45,156 nt of DNA. Origin: Desulfurobacterium atlanticum. Lineage in GTDB: Bacteria > Aquificota > Aquificia > Desulfurobacteriales > Desulfurobacteriaceae. Positions 26,635 through 44,358 of the stretch are shown piece by piece. The DNA lies in the NCBI RefSeq assembly GCF_900188395.1, contig NZ_FZOB01000014.1, positions 1 to 45,156 on the forward strand. The letters run 5' to 3'. The position numbers and the translations under genes are program-made. Position 1 is the first letter of the stretch; each line of letters opens with the position of its first letter. The notes below the pieces were generated by a model. That model saw only the letters and a list, made by a program, of their open reading frames with translations, ran no database searches and was not told where the DNA came from.

Positions 26635-26663
26635 TGGACAAAATTTAGAACTCTTGATAAAAT
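26635..26663 (+). promoter_or_regulatory. Putative promoter of the cas operon
   Basis: TGGACA (26635-26640) and TAAAAT (26658-26663) are 17 bases apart, each matching five of six consensus bases. Transcription would begin near 26670, after the upstream TTG at 26654 that opens the cas6 frame. This supports the GTG at 26696 as the true cas6 start. It appears to be the only clear promoter before the fourteen-gene cas run. Confidence 0.55.
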
Positions 26664-26695
26664 TTATAAAAATATGTTTTAGAGTGGGAAAAGGC

Positions 26696-27433
26696 GTGAG
26701 ATTAAAGCTAACATTTGAAGCACCAGGGGGATTAAAACTTCCTTTCCATTACCATTATATTTTGCAGGGATTTGTTTTGCATAACATTTCTCGCCCTCTG
26801 GCAGAGTTTATTCATTCTGTCGGGTATGGGAACGGTAATAAGGTTTACAAACTACTTACTTTTTCTAATTTGTATGGCAAAAACAAGGTTTTTAAAAGAG
26901 AGAAACAGATATTTTTTCCACAAAGTTTCCACTTCTATATATCAAGCTACGATTTAAACGTTTTATCAGATATTGTAAAACAGCTAATAGGAGCGAGAAA
27001 TTTAAACATTGCAGGACAGGAAGTTTTTTTATCTTCTATAGAATCTTTTGAAGAATCTATTATAACGGAAAGAGTAATATTGAAAACACTTTCTCCAATA
27101 ACAGTTCATGAAACAATAAACGGTAAAACTGTATATTACAATCCATATCAAGAAAAATTCTATCAACTTCTAATAAGAAATTTAATAAGCAAGTATAGTG
27201 TTATTACAGGACAAGCTTTTTCTGATAGCATAGAAATTTTGCAGATCAAAAATTCAAAATACAGGAAAGTTATAACTTTTTATAAAAATAACTTCGTGAT
27301 AGAGGCATGGAAAGGAAAATTTGAAATAAAAGCTCCGTTAAAGATTATAGAAATAGCTCTTAAAACAGGATTGGGAGCTCGTAACGCTCAAGGCTTTGGT
27401 ATGGTGGCAGTTGATAAAAGTGGGGAGAATTAG
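26696..27433 (+). CDS. cas6: CRISPR pre-crRNA endoribonuclease Cas6
   Basis: Cas6 cuts the repeat RNA to release crRNAs with an 8-base 5' handle (AUUGAAAC for this array). The 245-aa protein starts MRLKLTFEAPGGLKLPFHYH from GTG 26696. An in-frame TTG at 26654 is rejected because it lies upstream of the -10 box. H17/H19 near the N-terminus are candidate catalytic residues. The C-terminal glycine-rich loop GLGARNAQGFGMV is the RAMP/Cas6 hallmark that grips the repeat. It is the only cas6 in the locus and stands first, so it probably supplies crRNAs to both the type III and the type I-B complexes. cmr1 follows after 3 bases. Confidence 0.88.
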   Translation: MRLKLTFEAPGGLKLPFHYHYILQGFVLHNISRPLAEFIHSVGYGNGNKVYKLLTFSNLYGKNKVFKREKQIFFPQSFHFYISSYDLNVLSDIVKQLIGARNLNIAGQEVFLSSIESFEESIITERVILKTLSPITVHETINGKTVYYNPYQEKFYQLLIRNLISKYSVITGQAFSDSIEILQIKNSKYRKVITFYKNNFVIEAWKGKFEIKAPLKIIEIALKTGLGARNAQGFGMVAVDKSGEN

Positions 27434-27436
27434 GAG

Positions 27437-28660
27437 ATGAAAAAAGAAGTAAAAATAGCTTTTAAAACTCTAACACCGCTCTGGACAGGGGATGCAGAAG
27501 GTAAAAGTGAAAAATTAAAGCTTACTGGAATTATTGGTTCTTTAAGGTGGTGGTTTGAAGCATTGGTTAGAGGGATGGGATATTATGCATGTGATTCAAC
27601 TTCCGATAACAAGTGCAAAGTTGAAATAAAAAACCCAGGAGATATTGGCAAAATTCATGAGAAAATGTGCCCTGTATGTTTTCTTTTTGGCGCAACAGGT
27701 TGGAAAAGCAGATTTTCATTGAATATAGAAAACGATAATTTGAAAAAGCCTTATGATGGAAAAGTGGTTGTTAAACTCAATGATGGCAATGGGTGGCATT
27801 ATGAAGCCGGTCTTATGGGAGATGCAACGCTTATTTTTCAGTATGATGAATTCTATTTGTCAAAAGATTTAAATGAAGTATTTCCTTCCATTTTAAAAAT
27901 TCTTCTTTATTTAATTCAGGAATACGGAATGCTTGGGGCTAAAACTTCTATGGGGTATGGCGTAGCAAGGTTTAAAACTGCTGATAATGAACTTTCAATT
28001 AAAGATGGCAATTGGAAGAATTTTACTAATTATTTAGCATTGTTTGATAATAAATTCAATCCTGAACAAATTAATGACACTGAGAGAAAGAGAAAAATTG
28101 AAAATAATTTAAAAAATCTTCCTAATCTAAAAGACATGTTTTTTGTGAAATTTAAAATTGATGGAGAATTCAAGGAAATTTTAGAAAATATAAAGCAATT
28201 TTATAATCCTGAAAATAAAATTTCTGAAGACTTCAACTGGTTGATAACTTCTCCTGTGGTAAGGAAAGTGATAAGAAAAGAAATAAAATCACAATTTAAT
28301 TCTAATAATGATTTAAGACACTTTTTAATGGGAAAAGTTAAAGGTAAAAATTCTACTTTTTCGGCAATTCAGGTTTCTCATGTTTACACAAATAACAAGA
28401 AATTTGAATTCAGGATTTATGGATGGCTACCTGATAAAAAACCTATTCAAGGCAAGGTGAAAGATGTTTTAAATCTCTTGTCTCAACTCTTCAATGATGT
28501 GCCCTGGAAAGGAATATATGACAGTAGGCAAAAAAAGAAAGTTAGCCTTTTGCCGTCAAAAGTTGAAGATGGCGTATGCTGGCAAAATAGCAATTTAAAA
28601 TTATTGGATAGTTGTAAAAATGTGAAAAACCTATTCCTTCAAGAAGGAGAAAACCAATGA
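27437..28660 (+). CDS. cmr1: Type III RAMP protein Cmr1 (Cas7 group)
   Basis: Cmr1 is a RAMP subunit at the crRNA 3' end of type III-B/III-C complexes. The 407-aa protein begins KIAFKTLTPLWTGDAEGK and has the Cmr1 signature GIIGSLRWWFEALVRG (residues 31-46), the CPVCFLFGATGWKSRF segment with a zinc-type cysteine pair, and the glycine-rich YGMLGAKTSMGYGVARF. It follows cas6 by 3 bases and overlaps the next gene by 4 (ATGA). Confidence 0.88.
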   Translation: MKKEVKIAFKTLTPLWTGDAEGKSEKLKLTGIIGSLRWWFEALVRGMGYYACDSTSDNKCKVEIKNPGDIGKIHEKMCPVCFLFGATGWKSRFSLNIENDNLKKPYDGKVVVKLNDGNGWHYEAGLMGDATLIFQYDEFYLSKDLNEVFPSILKILLYLIQEYGMLGAKTSMGYGVARFKTADNELSIKDGNWKNFTNYLALFDNKFNPEQINDTERKRKIENNLKNLPNLKDMFFVKFKIDGEFKEILENIKQFYNPENKISEDFNWLITSPVVRKVIRKEIKSQFNSNNDLRHFLMGKVKGKNSTFSAIQVSHVYTNNKKFEFRIYGWLPDKKPIQGKVKDVLNLLSQLFNDVPWKGIYDSRQKKKVSLLPSKVEDGVCWQNSNLKLLDSCKNVKNLFLQEGENQ

Positions 28661-29682
28661 AATACGATTTTTATTCCTTTTTAAAATCTGAGAGAATAGA
28701 TAGAATTTCATATAATCAGTTTAAAAATAACCAAAATCTGTATTTTATCCATTCCAAACGAGATAAGTTATGGGGTAATAAACCGGGTGGAAATTATTCC
28801 TTGTATTTTAAAAGTAAAGGTTTTGTATATAATTTTTGCCCTGATGAAATATGGAAAAGATTAAACACATTGGGAAACGATACCAAGTTGCTAAAAACAC
28901 TAAAATTCACTTTAACTCTCACTTCAAACCTCTACACAGCATCAGAAAATAATTTCTATTCAATAGATAACCAATTCGCAAAGGAAAAAGCAACAGGACT
29001 TCTTGTATTTAAAGGAAGTTCGCTCAAAGGAGCTTTAAGGCAGGCAGCTGTTGAAAACCTTGAAGATGCATTATTAAAAGGAAATTATGGGGAAAAATTT
29101 GATGAATATATGAAAGAAAGCGAAGAAACTATCTTAGAAGAGGAAGAAAGCAACAAAGATGATAGATTCTTTTTTAAAAAAAGAGCCAGACTTGTGAAAC
29201 TTTTTGGAAATGAAAAAGATATAAACTGGTTTACATTTAAAAGTCTCCTTGCAACAGGTGGTATAAAAGATGTTGGTAAAATACAAGCTATTCTTGGAAA
29301 AATTTCCAGTGCTTTTGAAAAATATTTAAAACAGAAAAAGGTTGTAAACAGTGAGGGGATTTGCAGAGGAAGGTTAATATTTTCCGATTTACATTTTACA
29401 AAGGTAGCCCTTGATGTAATTACACCACTTAAAAGAGAAACAAGAACACCAACATCAGGGCCTATTTATTATGAGGTAGTTCCTGCTGGAGAAAATACGA
29501 CCGGAGCAATTATATGGTTTCCTTTTGATTTAATTACTAAAGGAAAACTTGATGAAATAGATGAAGAATGGAAAGCAGATAAGAAAGTAGTAAAAAAAGC
29601 TTTTGAAAAATTAAAACAAACAGGAATAGGTGCAAAAACAAAGGATGGCTGGGGAAGGTTTGAGATTCACTGGGAGGAATAA
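28657..29682 (+). CDS. Cmr6-like RAMP protein (Cas7 group)
   Basis: The 341-aa RAMP protein has a substrate-loop motif FKGSSLKGALRQAAVE (about residues 118-133), the strand GRLIFSDLHFTKVALDVITP, PTSGPIYYEVVPAGENTTG and the terminal glycine-rich GIGAKTKDGWGRFE. These fit Cmr6, and the gene order (cmr1, this gene, large subunit, cmr4, cmr5) is that of III-C modules. An acidic insertion (about 150-165, EEEES) is unusual. It abuts the large-subunit start with no gap. Another Cas7-group name would be equally defensible. Confidence 0.7.
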   Translation: MKYDFYSFLKSERIDRISYNQFKNNQNLYFIHSKRDKLWGNKPGGNYSLYFKSKGFVYNFCPDEIWKRLNTLGNDTKLLKTLKFTLTLTSNLYTASENNFYSIDNQFAKEKATGLLVFKGSSLKGALRQAAVENLEDALLKGNYGEKFDEYMKESEETILEEEESNKDDRFFFKKRARLVKLFGNEKDINWFTFKSLLATGGIKDVGKIQAILGKISSAFEKYLKQKKVVNSEGICRGRLIFSDLHFTKVALDVITPLKRETRTPTSGPIYYEVVPAGENTTGAIIWFPFDLITKGKLDEIDEEWKADKKVVKKAFEKLKQTGIGAKTKDGWGRFEIHWEE

Positions 29683-32600
29683 ATGGCACTAAAAGATTTA
29701 ATTGATAAAAGAAAGGATGTTCTTTTCGCTGAAATCGGGGCATTGATTCATGATTTGGGTAAGTTGAGTAAGGAATTTGTGGAATATTATGTTGAATCTA
29801 CTGATCCTAAGACTTGGAAGGAAGACTTACACTCTAAAACAATATTTCCTTCTCATTTAACTTGCATAGATGAACTTCTTGAGCGAATTTTCTGTCAATA
29901 TAACAAAGGAAATTATGATATAGTTGAAAGAGAGTTATTAAATGTTATTAAAACTAAATTGGAAAAAGCACTTAATTTAAGATTTGATACTAATGATTCA
30001 TTTCTGAAAGAAGTAGAAAAGAGACTTAAAATTCAGAAAAAGGGGAAAGTCAAATCATTTGCTGAGCTTAAATCAGCTTTAACTCATAAGGGTAAAAAAT
30101 ATTCAGACCAAGGAAAAGGAGAAAAATTAGATGAACTACTGGATCAAGTTTTTAAGCCTTTGATTTATATGGAAAATTTAAAGAAAGGGGTCAAAGAAGT
30201 TGGAAATTTCTTTGAAAATGATTTTTCTATCATAAATACCGCATTATGCAATATTCTAAACAATGAAAATATAGCCATATCTAACTTTATAGCAGAACAC
30301 CATTTCAAAACTTGCATTTCTAATACTATTTCTTTGATTCTGGCGGAGAAAGATGGTGCCGATGGTATAGACTCTGCCATTGACAAAATGGTAACAAACC
30401 ATAAGATTGCAAAGCAATCAAAAAATTATACTTATATCTCAACCGCCTTCGGGTATGAAAATCAAAAGATTGATTTAACCTTACCGGACACAGACGATAA
30501 ATCTTTAACCAGAATCAGAAACGATTATGCTGATAAACTTGCAAATATTCTTGAAAATCTAAAAGACATAGAAAATGATCCAGATAAAATTCAAAACTGG
30601 ATTAACAAAAGAGAAGAGCTTTTAAGAGAAACCAGAAAAGCCTTTTTAAATGCCCTTGGAGAAACAAGAAGACCTGCAAACGATGTAACTTTATGGGATC
30701 ACTCTTTTTCTGTTGCTTCCCTTTATAAAGCTGCCCTTGCTCAAGTAATAATAGATGGCTGGAAAGCCCCTAAAGATATAAAGTGGAAATTACTTGGTAT
30801 AAGATTTGATGGAAATGATTTTTACAATGCAGTTCCTAAGATAGGAGATCTCCTTGGCAGAAAAGCGCTTGTGCAAAAAATACTTGATAATATAAAAATC
30901 CTTCTTGAAGTTATTATACCAATTGGGAATGAGATTTACAGAGATGAAAACGGCAGTGTTTTTCTCGTTCCTGAGAATTGCGAAAATGAGGAAATTTTAG
31001 AAATAGATAACGATGTATGGAATTCCATTAAAAATATAAAATTACCCGTAGAATTGAATTATAGAGGTGAGTGGAATGAGAAAAAATTAGAAAATATTGT
31101 ATCTGATTGTTCTAATATAGAAGAACTCATTGAAGAGTTATCATCTTTTATTTCTCAAGGAATTATTAAACCCAAAATTATCCTTTCAAAATCATCCCGC
31201 GGTGCTTTAAATCTTGGACAAATTCTTTCCGAAGAAAAAAAATGGGAACCTGATGTAGAAAGATTAAAACAGAAATGGAGTGGTAAAAACGAAGGTTATG
31301 AAAAGTGCATCGTTTGTAACTTAAGGCCTGTTCCGTTAACAGATGAAGAATATGAAAACTTAATAAAAAGTAAAGATTGGCATGACCTTTCAGAAGAAGA
31401 AAAGAACAGTATAAAAGCCTATGAGAGAAAAGAATGCCTTGATTGTCTTAAACTGTCATTAAACAGAGTTGAAGAATGGTATAGAAACGCAAATTGGAAA
31501 AGAGGAAATCCTGAAAAACCATCCTTTGACACTTCAATCTGGATTGATGAAGTCGCAGATGAAAACCATAGAATCGCTCTTCTTTATCTAAAATTTGACC
31601 TTGAAAAATGGCTTAACGGAGAAATGCTTAATACATTTTTAAGCAATCCTTTGCTTGAAGAGGAGTTTAAAAAACAGTTGGAAAATGAACTATACAATGT
31701 GTCAGATTATAATCGCCTTATAGAACTTCTTGAAGAGGCATTTAATAAAAATGACTTTAACCAGAAATTCTCCATAACTAAACAAGATGGCAGCAACTTG
31801 ACTGTTAAAGACCTCTTTCAGGTATTAATTGGCAAAATTTACGCTACTTCTCCTACTGAATTGTTTCAATCAATTGTTGAAAACAGAGAACCTGATTGGC
31901 AGGATAGATACACCTGCCCCTCATGCGCTACAAAAGGAGATAATAAACATAAAGCAGCTGTTTTCCTTTTGCATACAACCCGCAAACATCCTTCATTTGC
32001 CCGTTTAAGGAGAATCTGGGAAACAACTAAAAATTTTGGAATTGATATATTTGAAGAAGTAAAAAGAAAACTCAATTCTAAGAAAAGATATGTGTTTGAA
32101 TTTACAGACTCCCCAAATCTCAAAACCACCCACACATACTATTTCAAAGATGATAAAGATAATAAAGGAGAAATTGTAGTTTTAGAAAACAATAAAGCAG
32201 CTGTAATCTCGGCAGCTAAGGAATTTACTCCAAAAAGTGGACAAATCCTTTACATTTTTACTGATAAATTTTTTAAAAATCAAATTGGTAGTTTAAATAT
32301 CAATAATGTGGAAAATCCAAAACCATATACGCCAATTATTCCCTACCAGTTTGAACCTTCAAATACGATGTTCTTTGTTCCCCTTAAAGAGGTTTGGGAA
32401 ATCATTAAGCACATTAAGAAGAAATACGAAATTGAATTCAACAAAGTTCAAAACAGACTTCCTATAAAGGTTGGTTTTGTTGCTTTTCACAAAAGAATGC
32501 CGATGTATGCCGTGCTTGATACTGCAAAAAGATTGATGGAAACGAATAATTCCCCTGAAATGCTTAAAGTGTGTGAAATTTCTGAATTAGAAACTGAGGA

Positions 32601-33312
32601 AAATTGTAGATTATTTGAAGGTAAGCTTAGGAATAAAGTTAAAAAAATTAAATTTGATAATGAAGAGATTTATTATTTTTCTTATGCTACCGGTGATCCC
32701 AACAAAGAAGACCTTTTCCATCCCTATTTCATAGTGGAGAACAACAACGGATGGAAAGTGCCTATAAGTGAAAGTGAAAATGAAAAATGGAAAATTATCA
32801 AGCATGTTAAAAACTTGCAGACAGGCAATAAAGTCTGGTTTTATCCTTCCTATTTTGATTTCGTCTATCTTGATACAAATACAAGAAGGCTTGATGTGGG
32901 GAAAGAAAGAAAACACTGGTTATTTAAAGAAAATTCACCGAAACCTTATAGATTAAATCAGATAGATGAATTTGAAAACTTGAGAGAATTGCTGCTTAAT
33001 AAATTAAAATTGACTTCATCTCAACTTCTTAATGCTTACGGAATGCTTATCGGAAAACTTCAAAATTGGGAGATAGATAAAACTGACAACTTTCCAATTA
33101 CAGATAAGCCTTTTGAAGAGTTTGTTGAAAATGTGATTTTAAGCATTCCATTTAGATTAAAGCTAAAAGAAGAAACAAAGAAAGGGCAGATTAGCAGGAA
33201 AGATTTTGAGTTTTTGAAAAAAGCTATGTTAAACGGTGTATTTTTTGACTTTATTGATATGTGGCATACTGTCTTAAAAAGAAAATTTTATGAGGAGGAG
33301 CAAAATGTCTGA
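29683..33312 (+). CDS. csx11: Type III-C large subunit, Cas10/Csx11-like, HD domain present, GGDD absent
   Basis: This is the large subunit of the type III module (1209 aa). The N-terminal HD nuclease motif is GALIHDLGK (H23-D24, K27), with further His-rich parts IAEHHFKTC (about 203-211) and LWDHSFSVASL (about 340). A zinc site is formed by C542, C545, C585 and C588, and another cysteine pair is at C745/C748. Where Cas10 proteins carry GGDD in a palm hairpin, this protein reads EIYRDENGSVFLVP (417-430), and no GGDD or similar motif occurs anywhere. The C-terminal FYPSYFDFVYLDTNTRRLDV is a segment I associate with Csx11. Subtype III-C is defined by such inactivated cyclase domains, so it should not make cyclic oligoadenylate but may cut DNA. 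It overlaps cmr4 by 8 bases. Confidence 0.8.
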   Translation: MALKDLIDKRKDVLFAEIGALIHDLGKLSKEFVEYYVESTDPKTWKEDLHSKTIFPSHLTCIDELLERIFCQYNKGNYDIVERELLNVIKTKLEKALNLRFDTNDSFLKEVEKRLKIQKKGKVKSFAELKSALTHKGKKYSDQGKGEKLDELLDQVFKPLIYMENLKKGVKEVGNFFENDFSIINTALCNILNNENIAISNFIAEHHFKTCISNTISLILAEKDGADGIDSAIDKMVTNHKIAKQSKNYTYISTAFGYENQKIDLTLPDTDDKSLTRIRNDYADKLANILENLKDIENDPDKIQNWINKREELLRETRKAFLNALGETRRPANDVTLWDHSFSVASLYKAALAQVIIDGWKAPKDIKWKLLGIRFDGNDFYNAVPKIGDLLGRKALVQKILDNIKILLEVIIPIGNEIYRDENGSVFLVPENCENEEILEIDNDVWNSIKNIKLPVELNYRGEWNEKKLENIVSDCSNIEELIEELSSFISQGIIKPKIILSKSSRGALNLGQILSEEKKWEPDVERLKQKWSGKNEGYEKCIVCNLRPVPLTDEEYENLIKSKDWHDLSEEEKNSIKAYERKECLDCLKLSLNRVEEWYRNANWKRGNPEKPSFDTSIWIDEVADENHRIALLYLKFDLEKWLNGEMLNTFLSNPLLEEEFKKQLENELYNVSDYNRLIELLEEAFNKNDFNQKFSITKQDGSNLTVKDLFQVLIGKIYATSPTELFQSIVENREPDWQDRYTCPSCATKGDNKHKAAVFLLHTTRKHPSFARLRRIWETTKNFGIDIFEEVKRKLNSKKRYVFEFTDSPNLKTTHTYYFKDDKDNKGEIVVLENNKAAVISAAKEFTPKSGQILYIFTDKFFKNQIGSLNINNVENPKPYTPIIPYQFEPSNTMFFVPLKEVWEIIKHIKKKYEIEFNKVQNRLPIKVGFVAFHKRMPMYAVLDTAKRLMETNNSPEMLKVCEISELETEENCRLFEGKLRNKVKKIKFDNEEIYYFSYATGDPNKEDLFHPYFIVENNNGWKVPISESENEKWKIIKHVKNLQTGNKVWFYPSYFDFVYLDTNTRRLDVGKERKHWLFKENSPKPYRLNQIDEFENLRELLLNKLKLTSSQLLNAYGMLIGKLQNWEIDKTDNFPITDKPFEEFVENVILSIPFRLKLKEETKKGQISRKDFEFLKKAMLNGVFFDFIDMWHTVLKRKFYEEEQNV

Positions 33313-34585
33313 TACATTTATACCTTTTAAAGCTAAAAAATACCTTGCCATTGCAAAAGAACCTGTATTTGTTGGAACAGGTGGATATAGAATAGGAAGA
33401 GTTGATAACACTATAGTTAGAGACCCTGCAACAAATCTTCCTAAAATTCCGGGCTCCACAATTTCGGGAAATGCAAGATATTACAGCTGGCTTTCTTATA
33501 AATCGGAAGGTATGAATTTAAATCTTGGTTGTTCAAAAGGTAAGAAAACTGAAGAACAGGACCCTTGCGGAGAATGTCCTGTTTGTCTTACCTATGGTTT
33601 TGTTAAAGACAAAAAGGCACATTCAGGGCTTGCCTATTTTTCAGATGCAAGAATTTTATTTTTCCCTGTTTCCACAATGATTGGAACAGTATGGCTTACT
33701 TCTGATGAAATTTTAAAAGAATTTGTTGAAACTGGTGGAGACGAAATTTCTGTGGAAAACAACTCTTTCCTTTATTCCCAATCCCTTGAAAGTTCTTTAC
33801 CCAAAAATGACGAAGGAAAAAAATTTTTAAACTTTGGCTGGATAATGCTTAAAGCTTCTAATTCCATTAATCCTGAAATCTGGAAGATAAAAAAAGATAT
33901 TGAGAACGATGAAATAACAGATTTAAGCGGTGTCTTAAACAGAGTGGGAACTCGTATTTGCGTAGTTTCAAAAGATGTTTTTCATCACATTGTTAATTCC
34001 AATCTTGAAACAAGAACATCTGTTTCTATAAATCCTATAACCGGTGCAGCAGAAAGTGGAGCATTATTTACCTATGAAGCACTGCCAAGAGGAGCGGTTT
34101 TTATCCTTGATGTTACTTATGAAAATCCTTCTAACTATATGAAAGATGAATCAATTGAGATAGTAATTGGCACAGTTGAGAAAGGATTTAAACTTTTTTC
34201 TTCTCTTGGTATTGGAGGAATGGGAACAAGAGGCTTTGGGAAAATTGAAATTATAGATAACTGGCTTGGTGAAAAGGAATACTTGGAGAAATTAAAGGAA
34301 TTTATTGGTAAGCTGAATAATAATCTCAATGAATTAGAAACAAAGATTAGTAAAATAAAACAAGAAATAGAAGATGAACAGGATAACAAGAAGAAAGAAG
34401 AATTGATAAAAGAGAAAAATAAATTAGAGAAAGAGAAGCAGGATATTGAAGAAAAGAAATCTCTTTGGATAGAATATGTTGAGAAAGTAAAAAAACAAAA
34501 AGAAGCAGATGTTAATAACGAGAACGAGATTTTAGATATTCTTAAAGAAATACTTTCCTCAAGCAGGGAGGCTAACAATGAATAA
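33305..34585 (+). CDS. cmr4: Type III backbone RAMP Cmr4 (Cas7) with coiled-coil C-terminal extension
   Basis: Cmr4 forms the repeated backbone that binds crRNA and cuts target RNA at 6-base intervals. In this 426-aa protein, RVDNTIVRDP then LPKIPGSTISGNARYY (residues 32-60) is the active-site loop, and D34 aligns with the catalytic aspartate of Csm3/Cmr4, so RNA cleavage is probably retained. A cysteine cluster (DPCGECPVC) follows at about 85-95. GIGGMGTRGFGKIE is the glycine-rich loop. Residues about 324-405 are a Lys/Glu heptad-like stretch (KLNNNLNELETKISKIKQEI) predicted as a coiled coil, beyond the normal Cmr4 end. ATG 33305 follows GAGGAGG. It overlaps both neighbours by 8 bases. Confidence 0.87.
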   Translation: MSDTFIPFKAKKYLAIAKEPVFVGTGGYRIGRVDNTIVRDPATNLPKIPGSTISGNARYYSWLSYKSEGMNLNLGCSKGKKTEEQDPCGECPVCLTYGFVKDKKAHSGLAYFSDARILFFPVSTMIGTVWLTSDEILKEFVETGGDEISVENNSFLYSQSLESSLPKNDEGKKFLNFGWIMLKASNSINPEIWKIKKDIENDEITDLSGVLNRVGTRICVVSKDVFHHIVNSNLETRTSVSINPITGAAESGALFTYEALPRGAVFILDVTYENPSNYMKDESIEIVIGTVEKGFKLFSSLGIGGMGTRGFGKIEIIDNWLGEKEYLEKLKEFIGKLNNNLNELETKISKIKQEIEDEQDNKKKEELIKEKNKLEKEKQDIEEKKSLWIEYVEKVKKQKEADVNNENEILDILKEILSSSREANNE

Positions 34586-35174
34586 AATCAATCTTGATAA
34601 AATTTGCGCTGAATACGGAATGGATTTGTTGACATTTCCTGAAAGTTTATACAATGAGGCTAAAAAGATTTTACAGGGCAGTAATAATAAAGAAGATTTC
34701 GAAGGTAAGAATTATGATGACTCAGACTGGAGAGAAAGTTTAAAAGAATTTAAAAATTACAATCTAATTAATCCACTTCAAGATTTAAAAAACAGAGTCA
34801 GGAAAGACAATCAATTTGATAAATTAAAAGAAAAACCATCTTCATTTAATTCATCTACTTTTGAAACAGAAATAACTAAAGCCCTTGGAATATTAGTAGA
34901 AGACGGCCCTTTTGCCTACATGATATGGCTTAAGTCTCAGGACAGAGAACCGCATAGAGCAATGCTTATCCAGACTGCAAGGATTCTTGCTGAACTAAAA
35001 GTTATTGAGAAAATTGAAACAAACGAAAATTTGAAAGAAAGGATAGAAAAGGCATTCCTTAACCTTTCTGGAAAGCTTCCCAAACTCCTTTTTGCAAAAA
35101 CTGTCCTTGAAAAGATGCTTATTTACGCAAGATACAAGGCAAAGGCGATGGAAAATAAAGTAAGTGAGGGATAA
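34578..35174 (+). CDS. cmr5: Type III small subunit Cmr5 (Cas11)
   Basis: The all-helical protein of 198 aa sits where cmr5 is expected. The C-terminal half contains the Cmr5-like pattern FAYMIWLKSQDREPHRAM... and FAKTVLEKMLIYARYKAKAM. Usual Cmr5 proteins are about 120-170 residues, so this is long; residues 1-80, rich in Asn, Lys and Asp, are the extra part. Small subunits line the complex and contact the target strand. It overlaps cmr4 by 8 bases and lies 2 bases before the next gene. Confidence 0.72.
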   Translation: MNKINLDKICAEYGMDLLTFPESLYNEAKKILQGSNNKEDFEGKNYDDSDWRESLKEFKNYNLINPLQDLKNRVRKDNQFDKLKEKPSSFNSSTFETEITKALGILVEDGPFAYMIWLKSQDREPHRAMLIQTARILAELKVIEKIETNENLKERIEKAFLNLSGKLPKLLFAKTVLEKMLIYARYKAKAMENKVSEG

Positions 35175-35176
35175 AG

Positions 35177-35878
35177 ATGACTGAAATTGAATATAAATAT
35201 TTTGAAATCAGGCTTAAAGCCCTTTCTCCTATCTCCATAACAAGAAGAACCTTCAACATCCTTTCTGAAACTTACTGGTTTATTCCTGCATGGACTATGT
35301 GGAACGCTTTTGTAAAGCTTTTTGCATTGTTTGAAGGCAATAGAGATTATAAAGATGCTAAAAGTAAACTCAAATCTATCAGATTAACAAATTTTTATAT
35401 TATAGAAAACAACGAAGCACTTTTTTCTTTTGATGAAACCAACCGTAAAAAATATATTTCTTCCGACCTTAAAAATGCCATCAATCCTCTATCCAATACT
35501 TCTCTTGAAGGTGCGTTGTATGAAAGGGAATATATCCATGCTAAAAATTTTATCGGCTGGGTGAAAATAAACAGTTCCGACAGTGATTTAAATACATTTT
35601 TTTCCGAATTAAAAGGAAAACTGTTTTTTATAGGAGCTGATAAAAATACAGGTTTTGGAAAAGTTAAAGTTGAAAAAATCAGTGAAATTCAAGTAGAAAA
35701 GCCTTCTTCTGATAAAACCAAGCCTAAAAACTTCTTGTTTAAACCAAAAAATAACAACTACTTGCTTCCTGTAGAATCTGACGAAAAAGAATTTTTTCCA
35801 TTAACCTTGAGAGAATGGGATAAGGAAAAGGGAAGCGGCATGAAAATAGTTCTTATAGAGGGTTCTCAAAATGATTGA
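35177..35878 (+). CDS. Cas5-group RAMP protein of the type III module (Cmr3-like)
   Basis: The 233-aa protein starts EIRLKALSPISITRRTFNIL and has SETYWFIPAWTMWNAFVKLF and the glycine-rich GADKNTGFGKVKVEKI (about 152-167), the pattern of a Cas5/Cmr3-type RAMP that would hold the crRNA 5' handle. It is shorter than classical Cmr3 (about 300-400 residues). By order and elimination it completes the III-C set. It overlaps cas8b by 8 bases, so the type III and type I modules are joined without a break. Confidence 0.65.
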   Translation: MTEIEYKYFEIRLKALSPISITRRTFNILSETYWFIPAWTMWNAFVKLFALFEGNRDYKDAKSKLKSIRLTNFYIIENNEALFSFDETNRKKYISSDLKNAINPLSNTSLEGALYEREYIHAKNFIGWVKINSSDSDLNTFFSELKGKLFFIGADKNTGFGKVKVEKISEIQVEKPSSDKTKPKNFLFKPKNNNYLLPVESDEKEFFPLTLREWDKEKGSGMKIVLIEGSQND

Positions 35879-37586
35879 AGCCATATATCGGTTCGGTAAG
35901 TTTATGGCGGGAGATAAGAAAACTGAAGATTTTATGACAGACAAAGTTGAAGCTGATAGGTTAATTATTTTAGAGTTTGATAGTGATGGAAATTTTATGG
36001 GTATTTCAGATACAAGGAACATTTCCGGTATTGAAAGCAAACTTCTTTATAAAAAAGTTAGAGCTTCACGCAGATGTAATTCAAATACGCCAACTTTCTT
36101 TTTAAACATTAAACATCCAGAAAAGAGTATCAGATGTCTGGAATCAATTTTTAATTGGCTTAAAAAATACTCAGAGAACATTGTTTGTATTAAAAATTAT
36201 GAAAAGGTAAAGGAAGAACTTTTAAATTATCTAAAGAATTTTCCACCTGAGAAAAATGAAAAAATTTTATTAACTACAACGTTTAACGGAAAATTTCCAG
36301 GAGAAATAGAAAGCATAGTAAAAGCATTTAAAATCGGTTATATGGAAGAATTTGAACCGGTTGAAGGTGTGTGTTCTCTCTGTGGAAAAAGAACTAAAGT
36401 TTCAGGAAAAAAATCACCTTATGCCTTTTACACTCTTGACAAGATAGGCTATATATCCGGCTTTTCAGAGAAAAATCATGAAAGGGGATTCCCTGTATGT
36501 ATAGACTGCTTTTTACTCCTTGATTTTGCTAAAAAGGTTATAGCTTCACATAAATTTTCCCTTACCAAATATGCTCCTTCCTATTGGCTTATCCCGGATC
36601 TTGTATTAACCGAAGTAGTTGACGAAAATACACAGGAAGTTTTTAAAAACATATTTGATTTAGAATTCTTAAAAAGGAAGTTAAATCTTACAAATAAAGA
36701 AAAACTTAAACTGTCCGATACTGACGAAGATATTCTTGACGTGTTAAAAGAACTTAAAGATACAGTATCTTTTCATTTTATTTTTCTAAAGATAAACAAT
36801 TCTCAGGAGCAAATAAGGCTTTATATTCAGGATGTTTATCCATCAAGAATAAAAAAACTCTTTGAAGTTAAATCTGCCATAGAGTCTGTTTTTAAACCGG
36901 AAAAAGAGTTTACTTTCAGCACTATCGGACAGTTTTTCTGGAAATGGGATAGAAATTCCCGCTCACGTGATTTAGAAGAATTCTTCCTTGAACTGATAGA
37001 TTCCATTTTCCGAAAAGTTCCGTATTCTGAAAACCTTCTTATTAAAATTCTGCTAAACGGTATAAGACAGACACTTTTAGATGAACTATTAGGAGAAAAA
37101 CTAAAAACCGCAAACAAAGCTTTTGATGCTCTTCTTTCATATCTGTTTGTTAAAGCTACTACGGAGGAAACTATGATAAACGGACAGTTTGATAATCTTG
37201 ATAAACTTCTGGAAGAACTTCCGCTACTCAAAACGGAAGAAAGTAAAGGAATATTTTTACTTGGTGTTTTAACTCAGCGTCTTATTGACAAGCAAGCTGC
37301 AAGTAGAGACGGCAGTAAACCATTTTTAAAAAAGCTTTCCGGACTTAAAATGAATGAAAGGGGTTTCAAAAAATTGATGACTGAATTAAGAGAAAAAATG
37401 GAAGCTTATGAAATTTTTAAAGGTTTTGAAAGGGAACTATTTGATATGGCTTCTGAATATTTTGCAAAAGCCCCATCTCCGTGGAAACTAAATGTAGATG
37501 AAATGAATTTCATATTTGCTGTTGGAATGGGAATGAAAAGCAGAATTTATAAAACCATTTTTGAAAAGGAGGAAGAAAATGATTAA
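35871..37586 (+). CDS. cas8b: Type I-B Cascade large subunit Cas8b (TM1802 family)
   Basis: Cas8b recognises the PAM and helps recruit Cas3 in type I-B Cascade. The 571-aa protein shows the TM1802-type zinc finger, C168 and C171 in GVCSLCGKRTK, then SPYAFYTLDKIGYISGF, then C210 and C213 in FPVCIDCFLLLD. The C-terminal half is helical (NERGFKKLMTELREKMEAYE), and may provide a small-subunit function as in other I-B systems. The ATG overlaps the type III Cas5-like gene by 8 bases and its 3' end overlaps cas7 by 8. Confidence 0.85.
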   Translation: MIEAIYRFGKFMAGDKKTEDFMTDKVEADRLIILEFDSDGNFMGISDTRNISGIESKLLYKKVRASRRCNSNTPTFFLNIKHPEKSIRCLESIFNWLKKYSENIVCIKNYEKVKEELLNYLKNFPPEKNEKILLTTTFNGKFPGEIESIVKAFKIGYMEEFEPVEGVCSLCGKRTKVSGKKSPYAFYTLDKIGYISGFSEKNHERGFPVCIDCFLLLDFAKKVIASHKFSLTKYAPSYWLIPDLVLTEVVDENTQEVFKNIFDLEFLKRKLNLTNKEKLKLSDTDEDILDVLKELKDTVSFHFIFLKINNSQEQIRLYIQDVYPSRIKKLFEVKSAIESVFKPEKEFTFSTIGQFFWKWDRNSRSRDLEEFFLELIDSIFRKVPYSENLLIKILLNGIRQTLLDELLGEKLKTANKAFDALLSYLFVKATTEETMINGQFDNLDKLLEELPLLKTEESKGIFLLGVLTQRLIDKQAASRDGSKPFLKKLSGLKMNERGFKKLMTELREKMEAYEIFKGFERELFDMASEYFAKAPSPWKLNVDEMNFIFAVGMGMKSRIYKTIFEKEEEND

Positions 37587-38496
37587 AAATCGTAGAGAGT
37601 ATCTTTTCTTCTATGATGTAACCGATGCAAATCCAAACGGTGACCCCATGGATGAAAACAGACCAAGAATAGATGAAGAAGTTGGAATCTGTTTTGTTAC
37701 TGATACAAGGCTTAAAAGAGTAATAAGAGATGAACTTGCTGATATGGGAGAAGAGATTTTTATCCGTGAGGAAAGAAAAGAAGATGGAAAATTAAAAACG
37801 AAAGAAGAACTTTTGGATCTTTACAATAACGGAGATTACAACGAAATAATAAGAAGATGCATAGATATACGGCTTTTTGGTGGAACATTTGCAGTCGGCG
37901 ATAACGCAAAAAGCTTTACAGGTCCTGTGCAGTTTAAATTTGGAAGATCTCTTCACAAAGTAAGTGTAAAACTTGTAAAAGGAACAACTGTAATGCCTTC
38001 TAAAGAAGGGAAAGGACAGGGAACCATGACAGATTTTTACATTATCCCTTACGGCTTATTTTGTTTTTACGGAATAGCAAATGAAAAAGCAGCAAAAGAC
38101 ACAGAACTAAAAGACGATGATTTAAAAAAAATGACAGAAGCAATGTGGAAAGGTATAAAAGAATCAACCGATGTAATTTCCCGCTCAAAGTTTGGTCACA
38201 TGCCAAGACTTTTAATAGAAATTATCTATAAAGAAAACACTAAAACACATATGGGTGAATTAAATAGGCTTGTTTCCATTAAAAAACCTGAAACGCTTGA
38301 CGAACTTGCAATAAGAGATATTGAAGAGATTGAGCTTGATTTTTCAAAATTAAAAAAAGTGGTTGAAGAATATAAAGATAAGATTGAAAAAATCTATTAT
38401 GCAGTTGATAAGAGACTCAAGTTTGCTGAAGGTTCAGAAGTTGAAAACATATTTGAAGGAATACCATTGGAGAAGTTCCCATGGCTTGCAGAATAA
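37579..38496 (+). CDS. cas7: Type I-B Cascade backbone Cas7 (Csh2 family)
   Basis: Cas7 forms the crRNA-binding backbone of Cascade. The 305-aa protein begins REYLFFYDVTDANPNGDPMD, the Csh2 signature (NPNGDP), with VTDTRLKRVIRDEL, DIRLFGGTFAV, FTGPVQFKFGRSLH and SKFGHMPRLLIEI. The frame is open from 37561, but ATG 37579 follows AAGGAGG and starts the conserved region. It overlaps cas8b by 8 bases and cas5 by 16. Confidence 0.93.
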   Translation: MIKNRREYLFFYDVTDANPNGDPMDENRPRIDEEVGICFVTDTRLKRVIRDELADMGEEIFIREERKEDGKLKTKEELLDLYNNGDYNEIIRRCIDIRLFGGTFAVGDNAKSFTGPVQFKFGRSLHKVSVKLVKGTTVMPSKEGKGQGTMTDFYIIPYGLFCFYGIANEKAAKDTELKDDDLKKMTEAMWKGIKESTDVISRSKFGHMPRLLIEIIYKENTKTHMGELNRLVSIKKPETLDELAIRDIEEIELDFSKLKKVVEEYKDKIEKIYYAVDKRLKFAEGSEVENIFEGIPLEKFPWLAE

Positions 38497-39227
38497 TTGC
38501 GTTTGATATATGGGGAGAGCTTGCTCATTTCAGGAGATTTTTTACCACATCTTCTCCATTGACTTTTTCCTTCCCACCACCAACCACAGTAAGAGGTATT
38601 ATTGGATCTATCTTAGGATTTTCAAAGGATGATTATATAGAAATCACTAATCGTTTAAATATCGGTATCAGATTACTTTCTCCTGTAAAGAAAATACGTT
38701 TCGGTTTAAACATAGTTTTTACTAAAGGTAGTGGAAAAAAATTTGAGCCCACCCTTTTCAGAGACCGCAAAGGTGATAACAAAAAAACAATTAGAACCCA
38801 GATATCAGCAGAATTTTTGAAAGATCCTAAATACAGAATTTTTATATCGGGAGATGATAAACTACTTGATAAACTTTTAGAATATCTACCCTTTCATAAG
38901 ACCGAATACACAGTTTCCCTTGGGCTTTCAGAATGTCTTGCTAACTTTTCGTTTACCGGAGAGTTTAAGGCTGAGCTTGTAGAAGAAACTTCAGAAATAC
39001 ACAGTGTAATTCCCACAGACAAAGTTTTCAAAATCGACATAGAAACTGACTTAAAGCTTGCGAAGGAAAGAATTCCCGTTTTTATGAACAAAAGAAGAGT
39101 TGTTCAAGAATATCAGGATGTTGTTTTTGATATTAAGGGTAAAGATTTAGAAGGGAGATTCAAAAATGTCTTCACAATCAGAGAAACGGGAGAGAACATT
39201 CACCTGTTTGCTTTCCCATCCCGATAA
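38481..39227 (+). CDS. cas5: Type I-B Cascade subunit Cas5
   Basis: Cas5 caps the crRNA 5' handle in Cascade. The 248-aa protein has the typical start IIAFDIWGELAHFRRFFTTS, LTFSFPPPTTVRGIIGSILG (the Cas5 loop PPTTVRGIIG) and LGLSECLANFSF. The C-terminal part (TIRETGENIHLFAFPSR) overlaps the cas3 start by 62 bases in another frame; the 5' end overlaps cas7 by 16 bases. Confidence 0.9.
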   Translation: MACRIIAFDIWGELAHFRRFFTTSSPLTFSFPPPTTVRGIIGSILGFSKDDYIEITNRLNIGIRLLSPVKKIRFGLNIVFTKGSGKKFEPTLFRDRKGDNKKTIRTQISAEFLKDPKYRIFISGDDKLLDKLLEYLPFHKTEYTVSLGLSECLANFSFTGEFKAELVEETSEIHSVIPTDKVFKIDIETDLKLAKERIPVFMNKRRVVQEYQDVVFDIKGKDLEGRFKNVFTIRETGENIHLFAFPSR

Positions 39228-41451
39228 ATACTTGATAAAGCATCTTCAAAATGTAGCAAAACTTGTTGAAGACACTTTTCCTATTAATGACGAAACCTTA
39301 AAGAAATTTGCTGTTTATGTGGCACAGTTCCATGATGTAGGTAAGGCAACACAATTTTTTCAACATTATATAAGAGGAGAAAAGATATTTTCTCAGGAAA
39401 AAAATCACTCTTTACTTTCAGCCATCATTCTTTTTTATTTTCTTCGTTATAACATGGATGAAAATCCTCTTTTATCTTTTCTTTCGTATGTTGCCGTTAA
39501 AAACCACCACTCTTTCCCTGAAGATGTATTTGAAGATGAAGGGGTTCTTACAGATATAGATTTGCTAAAAAAACAGCTTGATTCGCTTGAAGCTTCAATT
39601 TTCTCTGAAATGAAAGTAAAAATTGACCCAAACTCACTAAAAATAAACTTAGAAAATGTAATAAAAGATTTTAAACCTTTTCGTAGTTTAAGTAGATTCA
39701 AGAAAAAGTTTGGTGAAGTAAAAGACTATTTTCTTTACATTGCTTTTCTTTCCATCTGTTCTGCACTGCTTTTTGCCGATAGAAAAGATGCAGTTGATGT
39801 ACCAGAGATAAAATATTCCGATATTTCATACTTGCACTTTAAAAGTTTGATAGATTCCATTCCTGCAAAATATTCTATTGATAAATTACGGCAAAAAGCC
39901 AAAGATGCTGTTCTTTCAAAAGTATTTGACCCATCCAAAAGAGTTTACTCTATAAATCTTCCCACAGGTCTTGGGAAAACCTATACTGGATTTCTTTATG
40001 CACTTAAAATGAGAGAGATTTTAAAAAAACAAATTGGAAAAAATTTTAGGATAATTTATGCTCTTCCATTTGTATCAATTATTGACCAGAATTTTGAAAT
40101 TATTAAAGAAAAGTTACAACAGATTACAGATTCCTGCGACTCATCTTTAATAATTAAACATCATCATCTTTCAGAACCAGAATACAGAAAGGATGGAGAA
40201 AGTTTACCGTTTGATATTGGAAAAGTGCTGACAGAAGGATGGGAAAGTGAAATTGTGGTTACTACTATGGTTCAGCTTTTCAATGCTATTTTTCCAAAAA
40301 ATCGTTCTCAAGCTTTAAGATTTTCTCGCCTGCACAATACTATTGTTATTCTTGACGAAATTCAAACAATTCCTCTTAAATATTGGGAGATTTTTTCTCA
40401 AATTGTTGAAAATCTTGCTGAAGTCCTTGATTTTTACGTATTATTTATGACAGCAACAAAACCAGTAATTTTCCCAAATTGTGTTGAACTTGCCGGGAAA
40501 GAATTTTTTAAAGGTCTTAACAGATATAAAATAGATGTAGATATGGAAAAAAAGACCATTGATGAATTTCTAAGCACATTCAAATTTGAAGAAGATAAAA
40601 CTTACCTATTTATTCTAAACACAATTAAAAGTTCGCAAGAATTTTATAAAAAGCTAAAAGAGAAAGTTAATGGAGAAATTGAATATATCTCCGCCTCAAT
40701 CACCCCTTTTGAAAGGAAACAGCGCCTTGCAAAAATAAAAGAAGGGAAAGTTAAGTATCTTGTATCAACTCAGGTTGTTGAAGCAGGAGTGGATATAGAT
40801 TTTGACGTAGTGGTAAGAGACTTCGCCCCTTTTGATGCTCTAAATCAGTCAGCAGGAAGATGCAACAGAAATGGGGAAAAATCGGGAGCATTCAAAATTA
40901 TAAGACTTGTCGATGAAAAGGGTAAATTTTACTGGAGCTATATATACGATTCAATTTTATCTTCCTGCACTTATGAAACTCTTGAATGTGTAAACAATTT
41001 GACAGAAGAACAGTTTATAAACCTTACTGAAAAATACTTTAAACTTGTTAAAGACAGGGCAGTTGATAATGTAAAAGAATTGGCTTTATTTTCAGAGGCA
41101 CTTAAATATTTACGATTTTCAGGAAAAAATGGAAAAAGGTTCATAAAAGATATGAATCTTATTGAAAACGATTACGGAATAGAAGTTTTTGTCCAGATAA
41201 ATGAGAATGCTGTAAACGTATGGAACAAAATGATTGATATAGTTAAAAAGTTGAAGTCTGGAGAGCGTTCATCTTTCAAGGATTATATGAGATTAAAACC
41301 AAAATTTTATGAATTTGTCATTAGAGTTAATGTTGATGAAAAATCTTTACGGTTCTTTTCTGAAGAACTTGCTTTTCATTATATTCCTTTCAGGTATAAA
41401 GATATCTATTACGGAAAAACTGGCTTAAAAGAACCCAATTTAATATGGTAA
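39166..41451 (+). CDS. cas3: CRISPR helicase-nuclease Cas3
   Basis: Cas3 unwinds and degrades DNA bound by Cascade. The 761-aa protein carries an N-terminal HD nuclease (SHPDKYLIKHLQNVA with H26; QFHDVGKATQFF with H56-D57; NHHSFPED) and an SF2 helicase: Walker A PTGLGKT at 266-272, DEIQ box at 397-400 (VILDEIQTIP), FMTATKP, and QSAGRCNRNG as motif VI. It is complete in HD-helicase order. ATG 39166 is favoured by AGGGAG 9 bases upstream, although it lies 62 bases inside cas5. cas4 follows after 1 base. Confidence 0.93.
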   Translation: MSSQSEKRERTFTCLLSHPDKYLIKHLQNVAKLVEDTFPINDETLKKFAVYVAQFHDVGKATQFFQHYIRGEKIFSQEKNHSLLSAIILFYFLRYNMDENPLLSFLSYVAVKNHHSFPEDVFEDEGVLTDIDLLKKQLDSLEASIFSEMKVKIDPNSLKINLENVIKDFKPFRSLSRFKKKFGEVKDYFLYIAFLSICSALLFADRKDAVDVPEIKYSDISYLHFKSLIDSIPAKYSIDKLRQKAKDAVLSKVFDPSKRVYSINLPTGLGKTYTGFLYALKMREILKKQIGKNFRIIYALPFVSIIDQNFEIIKEKLQQITDSCDSSLIIKHHHLSEPEYRKDGESLPFDIGKVLTEGWESEIVVTTMVQLFNAIFPKNRSQALRFSRLHNTIVILDEIQTIPLKYWEIFSQIVENLAEVLDFYVLFMTATKPVIFPNCVELAGKEFFKGLNRYKIDVDMEKKTIDEFLSTFKFEEDKTYLFILNTIKSSQEFYKKLKEKVNGEIEYISASITPFERKQRLAKIKEGKVKYLVSTQVVEAGVDIDFDVVVRDFAPFDALNQSAGRCNRNGEKSGAFKIIRLVDEKGKFYWSYIYDSILSSCTYETLECVNNLTEEQFINLTEKYFKLVKDRAVDNVKELALFSEALKYLRFSGKNGKRFIKDMNLIENDYGIEVFVQINENAVNVWNKMIDIVKKLKSGERSSFKDYMRLKPKFYEFVIRVNVDEKSLRFFSEELAFHYIPFRYKDIYYGKTGLKEPNLIW

Positions 41452-41452
41452 T

Positions 41453-41956
41453 ATGGATTTAGAAAAAGCATTTATTAACGGAACACTTATCTGGTATTAC
41501 TACATTTGCAAACGGGAAGTGTGGCTTATTGCCCACGGAATAGAAGCAGAGCAGGATAACAGTTTCATTTCTATCGGCAGACTAATTCATGAAACTTATT
41601 ATAAAAGTAAAAAGAAAGAGTTATTTATAGACAACAAAATAAAGGTTGATATTCTTGAAAGTAGAAAAGTCATAGGTGAGGTAAAGAAAAGTTCCAGATT
41701 TCTGAAAAGTGCCAGAATGCAGCTTGTTTTTTATTTGTATTATATAAAGAAAGTAAAAGGAGAAGAACTTACAGGCGAACTACTGATACCTGAAGAGAGA
41801 AAGAGAATCCCTGTAAAACTTACAAAGAAATTGGAGAAAGAGATTGAAACAGCTATAGAAGAGATAGAAGAAATAATAAATCTTTCAAAACCTCCAAAGG
41901 CTGAAAAAACTGTCTTTTGTAAAAATTGCGCATACAGAGAATTTTGCTGGAGCTAA
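41453..41956 (+). CDS. cas4: CRISPR-associated exonuclease Cas4
   Basis: Cas4 trims prespacers and helps select PAM and orientation during spacer acquisition. The 167-aa protein has the RecB-like nuclease core: H46 (GRLIHETYY), D66 (KVDILES) and E76-V-K78 (IGEVKKSSR). The four iron-sulfur cysteines are C19 (YYICKREVW), C156, C159 and C165 (FCKNCAYREFCW). It lies 1 base from both cas3 and cas1. Confidence 0.93.
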   Translation: MDLEKAFINGTLIWYYYICKREVWLIAHGIEAEQDNSFISIGRLIHETYYKSKKKELFIDNKIKVDILESRKVIGEVKKSSRFLKSARMQLVFYLYYIKKVKGEELTGELLIPEERKRIPVKLTKKLEKEIETAIEEIEEIINLSKPPKAEKTVFCKNCAYREFCWS

Positions 41957-41957
41957 A

Positions 41958-42932
41958 ATGAAACAGCCTCTTATAATTTTTAAAAACGGTACAATCAAAA
42001 GAGAACAAAACACACTGTTTTTTATTGAGGAAAACGGAAGCAAGCATGTTATTCCTATAGAAGCAATATCAGAAATAGAAATCTTTGGAGAAATTAATTT
42101 CAACAAAAGAGTTCTTGAATTTTTAACGAAAAAGAAAATTCCTGTTCATTTCTATAATTATTACGGTTACTATACAGGCACTTATTATCCAAGAGAACAT
42201 CTAAATTCCGGATATGTAATTTTAAAACAAGCTGAACATTATCTGGACTATGATTTAAGGCTTTTTATAGCAAAAATGTTTGTTTATGGAGCGTATCGCA
42301 ACACAAGACAAAACTTAATCAACTATAAATGTGATGAGATTGTTGAAATTATAGATTTTAAATCATCTAACATAGATAAAGCTGCAACCATTGAAGAACT
42401 AATGGCTATAGAAGGCAACATAAAAGAGGCTTACTACAGCGGATTTAATCAAATTTTAAAACAATTTTCATTTGAGAAAAGAGAAAAACGACCTCCTGAT
42501 AGTGAAATAAATGCAATGATAAGTTTTGGAAACACCTTACTTTATACAAAAGTGTTGAGTGAAATTTACTTTACCCATCTTGACCCTCGTATAGGTTATC
42601 TCCACGAAACAAACAATAGAAGTTTCAGTTTAAATCTTGATATTGCAGAAATTTTTAAGCCTGTTATTGTAGATAGGCTGATTTTTAATCTCGTAAACAG
42701 GAAGATTATTAGAAAAGAACATTTTGAAAAAGAAGCAGGAGCATACTTTTTAAACGAACAAGGGAAAAGAATTTTCGTTCAAGCTTTTGAAAGTCGCCTT
42801 AAAGATACCATTAAACACAGAAGATTAAATAGAAAAGTCTCACTTCAAAGGCTGATAAGACTTGAATGCTATAAATTGGTTAAGCACTTAATTCAGGATG
42901 AAATATATGAACCGTTTGTGATGAGGTGGTAA
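41958..42932 (+). CDS. cas1: CRISPR integrase Cas1 (type I-B)
   Basis: Cas1 with Cas2 integrates spacers at the leader end. The 324-aa protein has the three metal ligands E152 (MAIEGNIKEAYY), H216 (DPRIGYLHETNN) and E231 (LNLDIAEIFKP). The N-terminal beta domain contains IPVHFYNYYGYYTGTYYPRE, as in Cas1b. It shares one base with cas2 (TAATG). Confidence 0.96.
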   Translation: MKQPLIIFKNGTIKREQNTLFFIEENGSKHVIPIEAISEIEIFGEINFNKRVLEFLTKKKIPVHFYNYYGYYTGTYYPREHLNSGYVILKQAEHYLDYDLRLFIAKMFVYGAYRNTRQNLINYKCDEIVEIIDFKSSNIDKAATIEELMAIEGNIKEAYYSGFNQILKQFSFEKREKRPPDSEINAMISFGNTLLYTKVLSEIYFTHLDPRIGYLHETNNRSFSLNLDIAEIFKPVIVDRLIFNLVNRKIIRKEHFEKEAGAYFLNEQGKRIFVQAFESRLKDTIKHRRLNRKVSLQRLIRLECYKLVKHLIQDEIYEPFVMRW

Positions 42933-43198
42933 TGTTTGTTATTTTGGTTTACGACGCTGGAGAAAAAAGAGTTCAAAAATTTTTAAAAATCTGCAGAAAA
43001 TATCTTGTTCATGTTCAAAACTCAGTTTTTGAAGGTGAAATCACAGAAGCAGTATTGAAAATGTTAATAAATGAGCTTAAAACAGTTATTAATGAAGATG
43101 AAGACTCTGTATTAGTATATAAATTTAGAACCAAAAAATACTATGAAAGATTATCGCTTGGCATTGACAAACCTTCTCATGAAAAATTTGTTTTCTAA
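42932..43198 (+). CDS. cas2: CRISPR adaptation protein Cas2
   Basis: Cas2 is the dimeric scaffold of the integration complex. The 88-aa protein begins MFVILVYDAGEKRVQKFLKI, with the conserved aspartate D8, and has HVQNSVFEGEIT, the usual Cas2 interface strand. The frame is open two codons earlier, but the ATG at 42932, which overlaps the cas1 stop, starts the family sequence. The leader and array begin downstream. Confidence 0.95.
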   Translation: MFVILVYDAGEKRVQKFLKICRKYLVHVQNSVFEGEITEAVLKMLINELKTVINEDEDSVLVYKFRTKKYYERLSLGIDKPSHEKFVF

Positions 43199-43389
43199 CA
43201 ACTGTCGGGAAAGAAAATTTATTTGATGGCAAGTTAAAACCTTGCCTCCCTAAGAATATCATAATACGCATAAGTTTTTTATAAATATCTTAATAATCAT
43301 CTCCGACACTTGACTTGCGATATTAAGTAATGATAATATAGATATAAACCTTGACGTTCTTTGAAAAAAGAATAAATTATTTAAATAGG
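43199..43389 (+). promoter_or_regulatory. CRISPR leader with putative array promoter
   Basis: This is a 191-base AT-rich stretch between cas2 and the first repeat with no open frame of note. It contains TTGACT (43310-43315) and TAATAT (43334-43339) 18 bases apart, a good promoter match pointing into the array, about 50 bases before repeat 1. A small stem GGCAAG/CTTGCC lies soon after the cas2 stop (about 43228-43246), without a T-run. Leader position and repeat polarity (ATTGAAAC at the 3' end) agree, so spacer 1 should be the newest. Confidence 0.7.
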
Positions 43390-44328: not shown

Positions 44329-44358
44329 GTTTTAAGCGTACCTCTAAGGAATTGAAAC

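Follow-up and report, generated by a model that had tools for sequence, protein, structure and literature searches.

The fourteen-gene run at positions 26696–43198 of a 45,156 nucleotide (nt) contig from Desulfurobacterium atlanticum (NZ_FZOB01000014.1; the window below means this whole contig, C14) raises the question of how a type III-C effector came to lie inside a complete type I-B clustered regularly interspaced short palindromic repeats (CRISPR) operon, and whether both effectors can draw on one spacer memory. We regard the run as a probable hybrid I-B/III-C locus, in which a type III cassette has been placed in a slot between cas6 and cas8b (the cas6/cas8b slot) that recurs in the I-B operons of Aquificota. 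At the level of sequence, the gene content, the tight coupling of the genes, the varied or missing cassettes in the slots of related operons and the unchanged repeat were demonstrated.

The run genes were named by family with curated Pfam, NCBIfam and PADLOC profiles. As a preliminary description of this DNA had stated, all fourteen are real open reading frames on the forward strand, with families confirmed by hidden Markov models, in the order cas6; cmr1-cmr6-cas10-cmr4-cmr5-cmr3; cas8b-cas7-cas5-cas3; cas4-cas1-cas2. The distances between neighbours, in gene order, are 3, -4, 0, -23, -8, 2, -8, -26, -16, -62, 1, 1 and -7 nt, so the largest gap is 3 nt and the overlaps span 4 to 62 nt; the earlier figures for gaps and for the longest overlap stood, while the smallest overlap is 4 nt and not 1 nt. 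The 8-base overlap between the modules was likewise recovered, and the profiles returned a complete subtype I-B set (Cas8b, Cas7b, Cas5b and Cas3, plus Cas6 and Cas4-Cas1-Cas2), in agreement with the earlier view that a III-C effector and a full I-B system are joined by coupled genes, with a single adaptation set between them. A search for other genomes with the same gene order found an analogous junction in relatives and the identical fourteen-gene order in another species of this genus (genome G001, loci L038 and L039; the window genome is G000), and because the order is repeated in this species, the run is neither a chance arrangement nor a misassembly. The features of the run are as follows.

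26635..26663, + strand: promoter-like site TGGACA-17-TAAAAT 5′ of cas6, of a kind whose density is not above chance
26696..27433, + strand: cas6 (TIGR01877, PF01881), GTG start, with alternative in-frame starts GTG at 26684 and TTG at 26654
27437..28660, + strand: cmr1 (Cas7-like; TIGR01894), III-C cassette, of a lineage differing from that in G001
28657..29682, + strand: cmr6 (Cas7-like), III-C cassette, PADLOC Cmr6 at 2.4e-57
29683..33312, + strand: cas10c (Csx11), TIGR02682 at 421.6 bits (cut-off 248.95), PADLOC Cas10c at 4.6e-149
33290..34585, + strand: cmr4 (Cas7 backbone, putative RNase; TIGR02580), with invariant D39
34578..35174, + strand: cmr5 (Cas11 small subunit, III-C type), PADLOC Cmr5 CAS-III-C at 3.1e-29
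35177..35878, + strand: cmr3 (Cas5-like), III-C cassette, PADLOC Cmr3 at 1.1e-24
35871..35878, + strand: cmr3/cas8b 8-nt overlap ATGATTGA, the 3′ edge of the type III slot
35871..37586, + strand: cas8b (TM1802/Csh1; TIGR02556, TIGR02591)
37561..38496, + strand: cas7b (Csh2; TIGR02590)
38481..39227, + strand: cas5b (Cas5h; TIGR02592)
39166..41451, + strand: cas3 (HD plus helicase; TIGR01587, TIGR01596)
41453..41956, + strand: cas4 (TIGR00372)
41958..42932, + strand: cas1 (I-B type; TIGR03641)
42926..43198, + strand: cas2 (TIGR01573)

To place the junction in its wider context, about 100 Aquificota genomes were searched for cas8b and the loci were then read. In nine I-B loci cas6 directly abuts cas8b, that is, the slot is empty (G074, G040, G048, G095, G056, G091, G033, G088 and G100), and in eight it is filled, by III-C in G000, G001, G041 and G066, by III-B in G024 and G052, and by III-A in G069 and G055; the PADLOC scan covered G052, G069 and one protein of G055, and similarity to these, together with the Cas profiles, served to name G024 and the remainder of G055. 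The junction 5′ of cas8b measures between -17 and +30 nt in 17 of 17 loci, and on the I-B tree the slot states interleave, with at least five changes, among closely related I-B operons. The sharpest boundary was seen between G066 (III-C) and G052 (III-B), whose DNA is 85-88% identical from the base that precedes the cas8b start codon onward, shows no detectable match from the end of cas6 up to that base, and is 67% identical in cas6. The signalling III-A and III-B cassettes are accompanied by CARF-RelE and SAVED-TM genes, unlike the III-C cassettes, which between cas6 and cas8b carry no CARF or SAVED gene. The SAVED-TM gene adjoining cas8b is 75% identical in DNA between G052 (III-B; L125 8747-9745) and G069 (III-A; L127 9284-10279), so the exchange there lay upstream of SAVED-TM. 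Beyond Aquificota, the arrangement cas6-[III-C]-cas8b was found in an Aminicenantes metagenome-assembled genome (MAG; L065), and III-C also occurs elsewhere in type I operons: a WOR-3 MAG has it between cas8b and cas7b (L058), a Cloacimonadota MAG between cas1 and cas2 (L061), and a further locus from an Aminicenantes MAG ahead of cas3 (L054); these varied positions make the slot a preference of Aquificota and not a rule. Small genes were also seen inside Hydrogenothermaceae I-B operons, between cas8b and cas7b or between cas7b and cas5b (L123, L127), and by sequence they look like nucleotidyltransferase/HEPN toxin-antitoxin pairs.

The trees of the two halves of the run were then compared. 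For the I-B genes, the window and G001 form a sister pair (support 100/99) with 69% concatenated identity. The Cas10c proteins of the same two species share ~29% identity and are separated by the deepest split of the III-C tree, and for Cmr1, Cmr3, Cmr4 and Cmr6 taken together the window-G001 pairing was rejected (approximately unbiased (AU) test, p 1.3e-5). Closest to the window cassette are those of an uncultured bacterium and of Acidobacteriota and Aminicenantes MAGs (Cas10c 48-60%), and the Cas10c of Desulfothermus okinawensis reaches 57% in its best segment. The trees thus showed that the III-C cassette and the surrounding I-B genes differ in evolutionary history. The Cas6 of G066 clusters with that encoded by a free-standing cas6-III-C locus (G027; 100/99), and a tree joining it to its I-B sisters was rejected (AU p 3e-5); this position suggests homologous recombination through cas6, and in G066 the cassette and its cas6 appear to have come in jointly. 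Such joint movement was not supported as a general rule: it is true for G066 and unsupported for the window/G001 pair.

The features of the III-C effector itself were read from its proteins. The cassette holds homologues of Cmr1, Cmr3, Cmr4, Cmr5 and Cmr6, and all six III-C genes are intact. D39 of Cmr4 is 100% conserved, at the position expected of the Cas7 RNase in Cmr4/Csm3. The GGDD cyclase motif is absent from the window Cas10c, which reads EPSN at the aligned site and has no GGDD anywhere in the protein, and its HD motif (H23-D24) is kept. A tree of 61 Cas10c proteins resolved two superclades: in the one containing the window protein most members keep the HD motif, and in the other, which includes all other Aquificota examined, 0 of 35 have it and most read FNLGK; the G001 protein has lost it. 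These two superclades, HD-keeping and HD-lacking, fit a published survey in which III-C lacks cyclase sites and half of III-C has an HD domain (PMC11229360). A sequence search for a solved structure of a III-C Cas10 found none. When Cas10 was modelled as two halves (predicted local distance difference test (pLDDT) 74.7 and 83.4), the best structural matches were Cas10 chains, with low TM-scores, and a large part of the N-terminal HD region came out poorly, so that HD activity rests on motifs.

Downstream of cas2 the run is continued by a leader and an array.

43199..43389, + strand: leader of 191 nt between cas2 and the first repeat, with promoter-like TTGACT-16-GATAAT at 43310-43337
43390..45156, + strand: CRISPR array with 27 repeats of GTTTTAAGCGTACCTCTAAGGAATTGAAAC and 26 spacers, the last repeat cut by the contig end

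Since the window is the entire contig, the array is cut at 45156. The 30-nt repeat is identical in the window species and G001 and has a ATTGAAAC end. The earlier claim of one Cas6 and one array was confirmed for Cas6, the single member of its Pfam family in the genome, and in part for the array: there is one repeat, but the arrays on contigs C2 and C15 carry it too. The C2 array (L036 10481-15081) is an orphan with 69 perfect copies and no cas genes nearby; C15 has ~31 copies, again with no cas genes at the array, and as this contig begins in a partial repeat copy, it may continue the window array. Elsewhere in the genome, two Csm-like (III-A) loci (L048, L049) are associated with different repeats and seem to be equipped with Cas6-like genes of their own, and beyond these two lies a separate third cas1-cas2 locus (L047, L048 and L049 together). 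Two peculiarities of the spacers were recorded. The last window spacer (45092-45127) is the exact 36-nt reverse complement, with the same boundaries, of a spacer in the C2 array; a single protospacer seems to have been recorded twice, once in each orientation, and the resulting CRISPR RNAs (crRNAs) would be fully complementary. Tandem spacer blocks lie at 44024-44663, where one spacer is repeated five times and then another five times, and repeated spacers also occur on C15 (alternating pairs; L037) and C2 (four copies; L036), reflecting either array slippage or duplication, or an assembly effect.

The one good promoter previously proposed before cas6, TGGACA-17-TAAAAT, is no better than chance in this AT-rich DNA: promoter-like sites in the region numbered 77, versus 71.3 +/- 7.6 in shuffles, and the promoter and terminator scans were uninformative, returning chance density only. 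Directly 5′ of cas6, at 26571-26595, lies the dispersed element CTGAGGGCAAAGCCCGAAGGATCTC, with 37 copies in the genome at up to 3 mismatches versus 0 in the control, some of them also close to other cas loci on C1 and C2. Farther away in the window, a 1078-amino-acid protein is encoded on the reverse strand (16060-19296), whose N-terminal half matches NAD nucleotidase (nadN) and whose C-terminal half matches a choice-of-anchor I domain.

Whether the shared spacers could serve both effectors depends on their strand, as a type III crRNA must be antisense to the transcript. The purine fraction of the spacers was used as a proxy for strand, coding strands being rich in purines (window genes cut into 37-nt chunks gave 0.563). 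For the shared-repeat arrays the mean over 106 unique spacers was 0.503 (p 0.84), and the 73 unique spacers of the III-A-type arrays in the same genome gave 0.435 (p 8e-7; pyrimidine-rich, antisense-biased); since these control arrays are biased, the proxy is capable of detecting a bias. The estimated antisense fraction was 0.48 (0.27-0.68) for the shared-repeat spacers and 1.01 (0.83-1.20) for the III-A-type arrays, and no III-C imprint was visible on the former. Because the spacers are strand-neutral and type III needs antisense guides, III-C could use about half of the set and not all of it; thus, probably only about half of the shared spacers can guide transcript targeting, and the idea of an identical spacer set for both complexes was not sustained. 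Pooled over four genomes with I-B and III-C, the mean purine fraction was 0.499 (233 spacers), and over four with I-B and III-A or III-B it was 0.459 (175 spacers, p 1e-4); the difference between the two kinds of slot is suggestive only, with p 0.002 by spacer and 0.2 by genome.

Three other explanations were weighed against a hybrid locus with an inserted cassette. If the hybrid operon were ancestral in the genus and its III-C half had merely evolved much faster, for example under anti-CRISPR pressure, the same gene order in G000 and G001 would follow directly, and type III proteins do generally diverge fast; yet the window III-C proteins are much nearer to those of other phyla than to those of G001, the second protein set also rejects the window-G001 pair, and III-A and III-B in the same slot of close relatives are not producible by fast evolution. 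Fast evolution of a single ancestral III-C was rejected by both the Cas10c and the Cmr trees, and we hold this explanation to be very improbable. That the two modules are mere neighbours, with III-C expressed, or supplied with crRNAs, independently and the close packing reflecting a compact thermophile genome, is unlikely. In its favour, other gene runs in the window are also tight, promoter-like sites occur within the run, and the shared spacers lack an antisense bias. Set against these are the one Cas6 of its family in the genome, the finding that no other cas set lies beside arrays with the shared repeat, and the junction coupling, which is kept in 8 of 8 filled slots though the cassettes differ. 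A decaying or inert III-C half, leaving a locus that works as I-B only, would agree with the absent cyclase motif, the run without a signalling effector and, again, the unbiased spacers; but the six genes are intact, H23-D24 and D39 are conserved, and cyclase loss is normal in III-C (PMC11229360), which makes such decay distinctly doubtful.

Several observations weigh against the hybrid locus as we describe it. The strand neutrality of the spacers could also mean that III-C contributes little, and the strand estimate itself assumes that the targets share the purine-rich coding strands of the host. No protospacers came from a BLAST search of 50,697 phage records with the arrays of C14 and C2, nor from three exact scans of viral contigs. 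The promoter-like sites inside the run, present at chance density, count against a single transcript. The window Cas6 is sister to that of G001, and the cas6 route is unsupported for this locus; moreover, the trees give no direction, so that cassette gains and losses are inseparable and, for the window cassette, replacement of another is not distinguished from entry into an empty slot.

With the hybrid locus as the preferred explanation, its working can be proposed as follows. All run genes would be expressed together, and precursor transcripts of the shared-repeat arrays would be processed by one Cas6, giving crRNAs with a ATTGAAAC handle. The I-B complex (Cas8b-Cas7-Cas5 with Cas3) could then use all spacers against DNA, and the III-C complex about half of them, those antisense to a transcript, presumably cleaving RNA via Cmr4 (D39) and transcribed DNA via the HD domain of Cas10, without a cyclic-nucleotide signal or second messenger. 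The III-C complex of G001, lacking HD, would be left with RNA cleavage only, and Cas3 would carry out DNA destruction. Recombination through cas6 is the suggested route of cassette arrival in at least one relative, G066. More broadly, we lean slightly towards the view that the cas6/cas8b junction is a preferred docking site, at which III-A, III-B and III-C effectors are exchanged as cassettes, at times through cas6, by virtue of the common ATTGAAAC handle; if any type III subtype is able to use crRNAs with this handle, the cassettes would be exchangeable there. If the docking site is real, one spacer memory would be kept and the second weapon changed, this being either signalling (III-A or III-B with CARF or SAVED) or signal-free (III-C, with or without the HD nuclease). 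Closely related I-B operons that lack a type III partner, or that have either a signalling (III-A, III-B) or a silent (III-C) partner, form a natural experiment. They make it testable what a second effector adds, whether crRNA handles suit plug-in effectors, and whether the second effector shapes the spacers, for which the strand bias with III-A/III-B and its absence with III-C are statistically still weak.

Finally, the run was compared with known systems. As in subtype III-C at large, it has a Cas10c family protein, no cyclase motif, no cyclic oligoadenylate (cOA) effectors and the order cmr1-cmr6-cas10-cmr4-cmr5-cmr3, but its cassette is embedded in a complete I-B operon, whereas most surveyed III-C loci have no type I effector genes nearby; hybrid loci are a recognised annotation class (PMC11229360). 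A close parallel is the set of 71 genomes in which repeats and acquisition genes serve I-B and type III alike (Vink et al. 2021, PMC8482600). Common to both are an I-B system and a type III effector that lacks adaptation genes of its own, served by one repeat and one acquisition set, and, as in category 3 of that study, the run, C2 and C15 have one repeat, with no cas genes at C2 or C15. The coding-strand bias of the arrays in that category was not seen by the purine proxy among the 106 unique spacers, and since this feature is lacking, the window resembles category 3 without being a full member. The window further differs in its III-C subtype, its fixed cas6/cas8b slot and its cassette exchange, of which the consulted passages of that paper make no mention. 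That mobile type III modules use type I crRNAs is established, as in Marinomonas, where I-F is combined with a horizontally acquired III-B, strains carry unrelated III-B modules and a chimeric cas6f/III-B locus was described (Silas et al. 2017, PMC5576922); those modules lie at different genomic places, whereas here differing subtypes occupy one junction inside the I-B operon. CRISPR modules are known to recombine as units, as they do here, but this concerns mainly adaptation versus interference modules and not interchangeable type III cassettes at one operon position. A literature search, mostly without subscription papers, found no account of the cas6/cas8b slot. Sharing itself is already known; what is new here is the genomic context, a type III slot at cas6/cas8b with exchanged cassettes.

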